A stretch of DNA of 32,646 nt from Betaproteobacteria bacterium (GTDB taxonomy: Bacteria > Pseudomonadota > Gammaproteobacteria > Burkholderiales > SG8-39): contig JAOTWE010000007.1 of the NCBI GenBank assembly GCA_029863065.1, positions 1 through 32,646 of the forward strand, written 5' to 3'. A program made the position numbers and the translations under genes. This document shows, piece after piece, positions 3,941 through 30,185 of the stretch (positions are counted from its first letter, which is position 1; each line of letters opens with the position of its first letter). A model generated the notes under the pieces. It was not told the DNA's origin. It did no database searches and saw only the letters and a program-made list of their open reading frames with translations.

Positions 3941-4350
3941 AAGCCGACTGTGTGTTCTGCAAGCTCGTGGCGAAGCAGATTCCGGCGAGCATCGTTTACG
4001 AGGACGAGGCCACCCTCGCCTTCATGGACCTCGGCCAGGTGAATCCGGGGCACGTGCTGGTGGCGTGCAAGGGGCACGCCGACAACATCTACGCGCTGGA
4101 CGAGGCGCAGGCGGCGGCGGTGTTTCGCACCGCGGTGCGCGTGGCGCGCGCCGTGCGCGAGGCTTTCAGGCCGCCGGGGCTCTCGATCTACCAGGCGAAC
4201 GGCAAGCCTGCGGGGCAGACGGTGTTTCATTTTCATCTGCATGTACTGCCGCGCCATGAGGGTGACGGCATGCAGCTCGTGTGGCCGGTGAAGAACCCGC
4301 CGCGCGAACAACTCGAGGCCTACTGCAGGCAGATCCGCGCCAGGCTCTAG
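3937..4350 (+). CDS. HIT family (histidine triad) protein
   Basis: MKADCVFCKLVAKQIPASIVYEDEATLAFMD...QTVFHFHLHVLPRH (HxHxH). ATGA overlap with apaH stop. Confidence 0.93.
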   Translation: MKADCVFCKLVAKQIPASIVYEDEATLAFMDLGQVNPGHVLVACKGHADNIYALDEAQAAAVFRTAVRVARAVREAFRPPGLSIYQANGKPAGQTVFHFHLHVLPRHEGDGMQLVWPVKNPPREQLEAYCRQIRARL

Positions 4351-13894: not shown

Positions 13895-14836
13895 ATGGCG
13901 GCGATTTATCGCCTCGAGGTGCCATTGCAGGGAGCCGTAGCGACCCGCATTCCGGGCGCGGCCGAAATCTGGTCCGGGCTCGACCATCAGTCTCGCGTCC
14001 TGACCGCGGCGGTGGTGGCGTCGCTCCTGCTGCACGCGGTCCTGCTCTCGGTGCACTTCAAGTTTCCGGCGGACTTGCGCTGGCGCAGCAGCGAGCCGGC
14101 TCTCGACGTGATCCTCGTCAATGCCCGCACTCGGCAGCGCCCGTCGCGCAGCGACGCGTTGGCGCAGGCGAACCTCGACGGCGGCGGCGATACCGAACAG
14201 GCGCGGCGCGCGAAATCGCCGCTGCCGGTGATCGACCCGCGAACGCCAGGACGGGATCTGGCGAAGGCCGAGCGGCGCATGCGCGAGCTCGAGGTCGAGC
14301 AGCGAAAGCTCCTGGCGCAGTCGCGCCGGCCGGCGCCACGCGTGCCCGCGGTCGGTGAGCGCCCTGCGCCCGCGGACGATTCCGCACCGCCGCGCGGGGG
14401 GCGCGATCTCGAAGACCTGTCGCTCATCGCCATGCGCCTGCAGGCGGAGATCAGCCGCAACCTGGATGCCTATCAGAAGCGTCCGCGCAAGAAATTCATC
14501 GGCGCCAGCGCCGTCGAGTACCGCTTCGCGCAGTACGAGGAGGACTGGCGGCGCAAGGTGGAGCGCGTGGGGACGGTGAACTACCCGTCGGCCGCACGCG
14601 GCAAGCTCTATGGCAATCTGCGCTTGACGGTGACGCTGCGTGCCGACGGCAATGTCGAGGCGGTGGAGCTCGACCGCTCCTCGGGCCTGAAAGTGCTCGA
14701 CGACGCCGCGTTCCGGATCGTGCGCATGGCATCGCCCTACGCGGCGTTCCCGCCGCAGATCCGCCGCGACACCGACCTGCTGGTGATCACGCGCACCTGG
14801 TTCTTCGGCCGCGGCGATCGGCTCTGGACCGAATAG
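13895..14836 (+). CDS. TonB family energy transducer
   Basis: N-terminal TM (VLTAAVVASLLLHAVLLSVHF), charged/Pro linker, C-terminal VGTVNYPSAARGKLYGNLRLTVTLRADGNVEAVELDRSSGLKVLDDAAFRIVR TonB domain. Confidence 0.9.
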   Translation: MAAIYRLEVPLQGAVATRIPGAAEIWSGLDHQSRVLTAAVVASLLLHAVLLSVHFKFPADLRWRSSEPALDVILVNARTRQRPSRSDALAQANLDGGGDTEQARRAKSPLPVIDPRTPGRDLAKAERRMRELEVEQRKLLAQSRRPAPRVPAVGERPAPADDSAPPRGGRDLEDLSLIAMRLQAEISRNLDAYQKRPRKKFIGASAVEYRFAQYEEDWRRKVERVGTVNYPSAARGKLYGNLRLTVTLRADGNVEAVELDRSSGLKVLDDAAFRIVRMASPYAAFPPQIRRDTDLLVITRTWFFGRGDRLWTE

Positions 14837-27287: not shown

Positions 27288-28415
27288 ATGCGGTCCCTCC
27301 TGTTCGCGGCGTTTTGCCTTTTCGCCCTCGAGGGCGCACGCGCGCAGGTGCCGCAGGCGCCGCAGATCGCGGCGCGCGCCTATTACATCTCCGACCTGAC
27401 GAGCGGCCAGGTCCTGGCGCAGCACAAGGCCGACGAGCGCGTCGAGCCGGCCTCGCTCACCAAGCTGATGACCGCGTACCTGGTGTTCGCTGCAATGCGC
27501 GAACACCGGCTGGCGCCGGCGCAGCAGGTGCAGGTTTCCGAGCATGCCTGGCGCGCGCCCGGTTCGCGCACCTTCCTCGAGCCCGGCAAGCGCGTGAGCG
27601 TCGACACGCTGGTGCGCGGCATGGTGGTGCAGTCGGGCAACGACGCCTGCGTCGCGCTCGCCGAGGCGCTCGCGGGCTCCGAGGAACTCTTCGCGCAGCA
27701 GATGAACCGCGAGGCCGCCCGCCTCGGCATGCTGAACACGCGCTTCGCCAACGCCACCGGACTGCCGCATGACCAGCACTATTCGACGGCGCGCGATCTC
27801 GCGCTCCTCGCGGCGGCCCTGATCCGCGATTTTCCGCGGGAGTACGCGCGCTACTACCCGCTGAAGGAATTCCGCCACAACGACATCACGCAGATGAACC
27901 GCAACCGCCTGCTGTGGCTCGACCCGAGCGTCGACGGCATGAAGACGGGCTTCACCGAGGCCGCGGGCTATTGCCTGATCGCCTCCTCCGCGCGCGGCGA
28001 GCGGCGCCTGCTGTCGGTGGTGCTGGGGGCGGACTCGGACGCCGGGCGGGCGCGCGAGTCGCAGAAGCTGCTCAACTGGGGCTACCAGTTCTTCGACGGC
28101 GTGCGCCTCTACGAGCCCGGGCAGGAAGTGAAGGCGATCCCGGTGTGGAAGGGCGAGGACCAGGCGGTGCGCGCCGGATTCGAGCGCGGCCTGGTGGTGA
28201 CGGTGCCCAAGGGCGAAGCGAAAAGGCTCGCCGCCGAGATTCTCACGCATCCGCCGGTTCTGGCGCCGGTGCTCAAGGGCGACCAGGTGGGCGTGCTGCG
28301 CGTGGCGCTCGACGGCCAGCCGCTCGGCGAATACCCGGTGGTGGCGCTCAAGAGCGTGCCGCAGGCGGGAATCTTCGGCCGTGCCTGGGATACACTGAGG
28401 CTCTGGCTCAAGTAG
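27288..28415 (+). CDS. dacC: D-alanyl-D-alanine carboxypeptidase (PBP5/6 family)
   Basis: EPASLTKLMTAYLVF (SxxK), QSGNDACVALAE (SxN), GMKTGFTEAAGYCLIASS (KTG). Confidence 0.95.
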   Translation: MRSLLFAAFCLFALEGARAQVPQAPQIAARAYYISDLTSGQVLAQHKADERVEPASLTKLMTAYLVFAAMREHRLAPAQQVQVSEHAWRAPGSRTFLEPGKRVSVDTLVRGMVVQSGNDACVALAEALAGSEELFAQQMNREAARLGMLNTRFANATGLPHDQHYSTARDLALLAAALIRDFPREYARYYPLKEFRHNDITQMNRNRLLWLDPSVDGMKTGFTEAAGYCLIASSARGERRLLSVVLGADSDAGRARESQKLLNWGYQFFDGVRLYEPGQEVKAIPVWKGEDQAVRAGFERGLVVTVPKGEAKRLAAEILTHPPVLAPVLKGDQVGVLRVALDGQPLGEYPVVALKSVPQAGIFGRAWDTLRLWLK

Positions 28416-28426
28416 CGGGGGCAACA

Positions 28427-29260
28427 ATGGTCTTTCTCAACGGCAGATTCCTGCCGCTCGAGCAGGCGACGGTGCCGGTGCTCGACCGCGGCTTCATCTT
28501 CGGCGACGGCGTCTACGAGCTGATTCCGGTGTATTCGCGCGCGCCGTTCCGCATGGACGAGCACCTGGCGCGGCTCGAGCGCAGCCTTGCGGCGGTGAGG
28601 ATCGCGAACCCTTACGCGCGCGACAAGTGGCGCACCGTCATCCTCGAGCTGGTGGCGCAGCAGCCCTGGGAGGACCAGGGCGTGTACCTGCAGGTGACGC
28701 GCGGCGTGGCCAAGCGCGACCATGCGTTTCCCTCGGACGTCGAGCCGACGGTATTCGCCATGTCGAATCCGCTGGTGAATCCGCCCAAGGAAGTTGTGGA
28801 CAAGGGCGCGGCGGCGGTCAGCGCGCCGGATAACCGCTGGCTGCGCTGCGACATCAAGTCGATCTCGCTCATCGGCAACGTGCTCCTGCGCCAATTGTCG
28901 GCGGACGCGGGCGCCGTGGAGACGATCCTGTTTCGCGACGGCATTCTCACGGAGGCCTCGGCCTCCAACGTCTTCGTGGCGAAGAACGGACTCCTGCTAT
29001 CGCCGCCCAAGTCGAACCTCATCCTGCCCGGCATCACCTACGACGTGGTGGTGGAGATCGCGCAGCAGCTCGGCATGCCGCTCGAATTCCGCGACGTCCG
29101 CGAGGCCGAAGTGCGCGCCGCGGACGAGGTCTGGGTGACCTCCTCGTCGAAGGAAATCCTCGCGGTGTCGAGCTGGACGGCAAGCCGGTGGGCGACGGCA
29201 AGCCGGGGCCGCTCTACCGGCGCGCCTGGCAGGGCTACCAGGAATTCAAGCGGCGCGTGA
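28427..29260 (+). CDS. D-amino acid aminotransferase, class IV; C-terminus frameshifted (canonical frame would end at 29286)
   Basis: VFLNGRFLPLEQATVPVLDRGFIFGDGVYELIPVYSRAPFRMDEHLARLERSL...SISLIGNVLLRQLSADAGAVETILFRDGILTEASASNVFVAKNG. Expected C-terminus ELDGKPVGDGKPGPLYRRAWQGYQEFKRRVMRKEAVSA* is in another frame from 29170. Confidence 0.9.
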   Translation: MVFLNGRFLPLEQATVPVLDRGFIFGDGVYELIPVYSRAPFRMDEHLARLERSLAAVRIANPYARDKWRTVILELVAQQPWEDQGVYLQVTRGVAKRDHAFPSDVEPTVFAMSNPLVNPPKEVVDKGAAAVSAPDNRWLRCDIKSISLIGNVLLRQLSADAGAVETILFRDGILTEASASNVFVAKNGLLLSPPKSNLILPGITYDVVVEIAQQLGMPLEFRDVREAEVRAADEVWVTSSSKEILAVSSWTASRWATASRGRSTGAPGRATRNSSGA

Positions 29261-29285
29261 TGCGGAAGGAGGCAGTCTCGGCCTG

Positions 29286-29558
29286 ATGCCGATTCGCAAC
29301 GAAGAGACGCTGCTTTCGTACCCGACCGATTTCCCTATCAAGGTCATGGGTCGCAAGGAAAAGCGCTTCGCCGCGACCGTCCTCGGCATCGTCAAGAAGC
29401 ACGCGCCGGACTTCGACCCCGCCACCATGGAACTGCGCCCGAGCCGCCAGGGGACCTACATCAGCGTCACCTGCACCATCCGCGCCACGTCGCGCGAACA
29501 GCTCGACGACCTGTACAAGGATCTCTGCGACCATCCGTCGGTGGTCATGGTGCTCTAG
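29286..29558 (+). CDS. YbeD / DUF493 family protein
   Basis: ETLLSYPTDFPIKVMGRKEKRFAATVLGIVKKHAPDFDPATMELRPSRQGTYISVTCTIRATSREQLDDLYKDLCDHPSVVMVL. Confidence 0.95.
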   Translation: MPIRNEETLLSYPTDFPIKVMGRKEKRFAATVLGIVKKHAPDFDPATMELRPSRQGTYISVTCTIRATSREQLDDLYKDLCDHPSVVMVL

Positions 29559-30185
29559 ATGGAAGCCGCGCTCGCGCCCCGCCTGAAGAGTCTCGGCCTC
29601 GCCGAGTACACGGCAGTGGCGGCGCGCATGCGCGAATTCACCCTGCAGCGTGACGCCGACACCCCGGACGAGTTGTGGGTGGTGGAACATTTGCCGGTGT
29701 ACACGCTGGGGCAGGGCGCCGATCCGGCGTTCGGACCGAAGCAGGCGAGTGGCATCCCGCTGGTGCAGTCCGAGCGCGGTGGCGAGGTCACTTATCACGG
29801 GCCGGGGCAAGCGGTGGTCTACACCCTGGTCGACCTGACGCGCCGCGGCATCAAGGTGAAAGCATTCGTGCACCTGCTCGAGCAGTGCGTGATCAACTTT
29901 CTGGTCAGGCACGAAGTCCAGGCCGAGCGTAAACCCGGCGCGCCGGGGGTCTACGTCGGCGGCGCGAAGATCGCCTCGCTCGGCATCCGCGTCACGCGCG
30001 GGCGCGCCTGGCACGGTCTGGCGTTGAACGTCGACATGGACCTGTCGCCGTTCCAGGCGATCGATCCCTGCGGCTATCCGGGCCTGAGCGTGGTGCAGGC
30101 GCGCGACTTCGGCGTCACCGGGACGGCGAAGGAAGTCGGCATCCGCCTGGCGCGGCTCATCGCGCAGAGGCTCGAACATGCGTGA
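29559..30185 (+). CDS. lipB: Octanoyltransferase
   Basis: [22 protein letters not shown]...[30 protein letters not shown]...[42 protein letters not shown]. Confidence 0.96.

Follow-up and report, generated by a model that had tools for sequence, protein, structure and literature searches.

Among the routes by which bacteria make D-glutamate is that through MurD2/MurL. A bifunctional DapF provides an alternative bacterial route (PMC5885031), and the D-amino-acid aminotransferase Dat is able to turn D-alanine into D-glutamate (PMC5458566). A turn of the form LDGxPVGxGxPGP is common to the intact relatives, as is a helical region at the C-terminus, and a C-terminal helix has been described for this aminotransferase fold (PMC11673721). 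Pseudogenes that are made by the assembly itself are well documented in draft genomes (Cooley and Wright 2024, PMC11017572). Here, we examine a frameshift near the 3' end of a dat gene in a 32,646-nucleotide stretch of DNA (the window), which belongs to a draft genome of 3.07 Mb in 360 contigs (G000). This genome was very probably assembled from a metagenome, and the named relatives returned by the search are mostly metagenome-assembled Betaproteobacteria/Burkholderiales.

Reading frames and gene context

The features of dat and its neighbors are as follows, with G003 and G002 denoting two congeners of G000.

27288–28415, plus strand: dacA-type D-Ala-D-Ala carboxypeptidase gene, intact, upstream of dat (PF00768, E 5.5e-79)
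28427–29260, plus strand: dat, D-amino-acid aminotransferase (PLP fold type IV), read in frame as 277 aa, of which the C-terminal 30 are aberrant (PF01063 and TIGR01121)
29165–29167, plus strand: one-base loss relative to relatives, seen in a MAFFT alignment with eight of them as one gap column between 29166 and 29167
29167–29286, plus strand: ancestral-frame C-terminus (VELDGKPVGDGKPGPLYRRAWQGYQEFKRRVMRKEAVSA) and its TGA, open, with third-position-biased change (translation and alignment)
29168–29257, plus strand: 30 out-of-frame codons in place of the native 39-residue C-terminus (translation compared with G003 and G002)
29258–29260, plus strand: TGA stop of the shifted frame (translation)
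29268–29272, plus strand: GGAGG, candidate ribosome-binding site for ybeD (putative function), 13 nt before the ybeD ATG
29286–29558, plus strand: ybeD (DUF493), intact (PF04359, E 3.3e-32), its start overlapping the ancestral dat stop (TGATG)
29559–30185, plus strand: lipB-like ORF, intact, downstream, named by sequence recognition only

Read in frame from the ATG at 28427, dat encodes a protein of 277 aa that ends ...SSSKEILAVSSWTASRWATASRGRSTGAPGRATRNSSGA, the aberrant tail before the TGA at 29258–29260 being SSWTASRWATASRGRSTGAPGRATRNSSGA. The frame that begins at 29170 gives ELDGKPVGDGKPGPLYRRAWQGYQEFKRRVMRKEAVSA and closes with a TGA (29284–29286) that overlaps the ATG of ybeD (29286). 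The initial annotation had reported these two readings, and its coordinates and both translations were borne out by re-translation. The encoded protein agrees with those of relatives to codon 247, after which 30 unrelated residues stand in place of the native 39. The same annotation had attributed the shift to one base missing at about 29165–29170, and this was upheld by the single-base gap in the alignment, which sits among otherwise gap-free columns; it had also named an "extra base" in the reads as what would overturn its reading, whereas the alignment has a base missing relative to the relatives. The presence of a one-base frameshift near the 3' end of dat is therefore confirmed.

The shifted stop precedes ybeD by about 26 nt, whereas the ancestral stop overlaps the start of that gene, and the GGAGG sequence could support independent initiation of ybeD if the shift is real. 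At the next junction (29286–29559), the TAG of ybeD abuts the ATG of the lipB-like ORF in one frame, whereas the two ORFs are in different frames in G003; both are intact.

Domains and C-terminus of the encoded protein

The dat product matches PF01063 over the entire profile (E 7.8e-47, profile positions 1–223 of 223, residues 28–250), which places it among the class IV aminotransferases. Its best equivalog is the D-amino-acid transaminase TIGR01121 (E 1.1e-71, profile positions 2–259 of 276), and it matches the solved structures 4m0j (E 1.4e-77) and 1daa (about 4e-53). The TIGR01121 score of 241.2 bits is below the curated equivalog cut-off of 277.45, which none of the 61 genomes scanned reached, intact relatives included (best 274.5), and which is non-discriminating in this clade. 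The profile match ends at position 259 in G000, compared with positions 268–273 in intact relatives, and across the 61 genomes the G000 protein was the sole C-terminally short match away from a contig edge. The native in-frame C-terminus of a D-amino-acid aminotransferase is absent from the G000 reading: lost with the shift are the C-terminal helix, an L-D pair that is nearly invariant, and the glycine turn, whose invariant columns align to G265 and G268.

The dat locus in relatives

The congeners G003 and G002 carry a full-length dat at 82–84% DNA identity, each encoding a protein of 286 aa (ending ...AVVELDGKPVGDGRPGPVFRRAWQGYQEFKRRVMRKESVPA and ...AVVTLDGKPVGEGKPGPLFRKAWQAYQEFKAKVMRKEAVSA), and in both the gene meets ybeD in the same TGATG. 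Because these proteins are intact at this level of DNA identity, chance is ruled out for the frameshift. In a further congener, G001 (L011, G001:C369), the contig stops within dat at codon 212, so the locus was left out of the comparison at the site. The ancestral C-terminus is kept in all 28 relatives of a first set whose contig reaches the gene end, and in 79 of the 79 testable loci in a second set of 80 that overlaps the first. The comparison with close relatives that the initial annotation had proposed was thus uniform in its outcome, and the one-base loss is unique to the G000 assembly among testable relatives.

The substitutions on either side of the site were counted by codon position. 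Upstream, the counts were 18/19/75 against G003 and 19/22/77 against G002; downstream, by ancestral codon position, they were 3/2/10 and 5/6/11, respectively. Judged by these substitutions, the tail sequence is still conserved in the old frame, with no decay, and the change must therefore be very recent or absent from the organism. As in pseudogenes that arise through assembly errors, the loss is absent from the closest relatives and is not followed by downstream decay.

The surrounding DNA was also searched for frameshift signals. No X_XXY_YYZ slippery heptamer was found in the region of about 29031–29280, and no homopolymer is present at the site, the only nearby run of at least four identical bases being GGGG at 29205. 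A shift conserved in relatives was not found either, as all of the testable ones encode the C-terminus in a single frame.

A one-base loss elsewhere in the draft genome

The frequency of frameshifts was estimated from about 105 kb of G000 aligned to G003, of which about 85 kb is coding sequence. Broken frames in this coding portion were sought with an ORF-integrity test, which replaced a noisy offset scan. Outside the window, the widely conserved gene phoH (contig 16, G000:C16; locus L136, about 14,300–14,350) is one base short relative to G003. Its first 254 residues match G003 at 91%, whereas the last 68, which match at 90%, are encoded in the next frame. Together with dat, this amounts to two one-base losses over the roughly 85 kb of coding sequence compared, a small sample, and the reverse comparison gave no confirmed one-base loss. 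The remaining flags were judged by inspection to be upstream ORF extensions, and dat itself went unflagged owing to such an extension. Frameshift candidates from tblastn at 4350 and at ybeD/lipB were artefacts of shadow frames and were rejected, since ybeD and the HIT-family ORF are intact. Draft assemblies are known to give rise to false pseudogenes (PMC11017572), and a pair of one-base losses in conserved genes over 85 kb is in line with this.

D-glutamate supply

The profile for the glutamate racemase MurI (TIGR00067) had no match in G000, a 94%-complete assembly, and it was likewise unmatched in three congeners (one of them 98% complete) and in most of the family. An Asp/Glu-racemase-like fragment (L252:3-392, G000:C145; PF01177, 98 bits) was considered as a possible MurI and set aside, as it does not match TIGR00067, though it is a partial sequence at a contig edge. 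Alanine racemase is present in G000 and able to feed Dat. No class IV aminotransferase of the D-amino-acid type was seen in this genome besides the dat product, the other PF01063 protein being IlvE.

The presence of dat and murI is complementary across 61 genomes, including relatives G001–G036. A murI gene was found in five of the six genomes without a strong dat match and in 13 of the 55 with dat (Fisher p = 0.007, uncorrected for phylogeny), and the single genome without either gene is 88% complete. Thus, dat may be the usual source of D-glutamate in this lineage. Taken together, these observations suggest that Dat is probably the source of D-glutamate for the cell wall in G000 and that dat is probably essential there. 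With murI not found and Dat probably filling this role, loss of dat would be costly and strongly selected against. A literature search for dat replacing murI in Betaproteobacteria found no report with the terms used.

Origin of the frameshift

We consider it probable, from comparison of the sequences, that the frameshift is explained by an error, the deletion of one base in the G000 consensus as assembled. Such an error would have entered the consensus of the draft genome, while the dat gene of the cell would most likely be intact, encoding a normal 286-residue enzyme with a stop codon that overlaps the ybeD start, and the source reads would be expected to contradict the consensus at the site. 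This explanation is favored because the loss is unique to the assembly, no frameshift signal or decay accompanies it, and a second loss is present in phoH; it gains weight because dat is probably indispensable with murI not found. Against it, the site has no long homopolymer and is thus not a textbook error spot, and a natural recent mutation can look identical.

The runner-up is indeed such a mutation, a genuine loss of one base that arose very recently in the sampled population and by which 39 residues gave way to 30 unrelated ones, and we regard it as unlikely. Dat would then probably be impaired or destabilized, and any translational coupling to ybeD would be loosened. A site outside a homopolymer is in keeping with a real deletion, which would likewise leave the downstream ancestral frame undegraded, and some activity could survive, as the PF01063 match almost wholly precedes the shift. 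However, the lost part spans the C-terminal helix (PMC11673721) as well as the nearly invariant L-D pair and the glycine turn, and with murI not found and dat as the sole gene of its type, the loss would, in the absence of another route, probably be lethal. The comparable second slip in phoH also argues against a genuine deletion. If the frameshift were real, the lineage made D-glutamate via Dat alone, and the 277-residue enzyme worked, the C-terminal turn and helix would be dispensable, a conjunction that we consider very improbable.

We give next to no credence to the idea that the new 30-residue tail is functional and has become fixed in the species. The core domain is retained, but the tail occurs in no relative, and the DNA downstream of the site still has the appearance of conservation in its ancestral frame. 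A structure model says little, as the tail has only moderate confidence in it (block mean pLDDT 63–73) and the active-site parts are themselves uncertain. A programmed -1 frameshift during translation (or slippage during transcription), ranked least likely by the initial annotation as well, is equally hard to credit. An open -1 frame does extend from 28834 to 29284, and a slip shortly before the site would yield full-length Dat, but the site lacks both a slippery heptamer and a homopolymer, and such a shift is neither needed nor seen in any relative.

The frameshift is thus most likely an assembly error, because the same kind of slip is present in another conserved gene of the draft, and is of little biological interest in itself. 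It is a cautionary case, as automatic annotation would call this dat truncated or a pseudogene and, with murI not found, metabolic reconstruction would then wrongly deny the organism D-glutamate for its cell wall. The observation that dat seems to stand in for murI across most of the family is more useful than the frameshift.

Comparison with known systems

The G000 dat product aligns with bacterial Dat/DAAT proteins (TIGR01121, PF01063; solved relatives 4m0j, 4pbc, and 1daa) to about residue 247; unlike these proteins, the assembled version ends in 30 unrelated residues instead of the native 39. The other comparison is with spurious pseudogenes attributed to assembly errors (PMC11017572). The G000 case, which differs from them in being known from the consensus sequence and relatives, resembles them in that a single-base frameshift disrupts a conserved gene, is absent from close relatives, and has a counterpart elsewhere in the draft.
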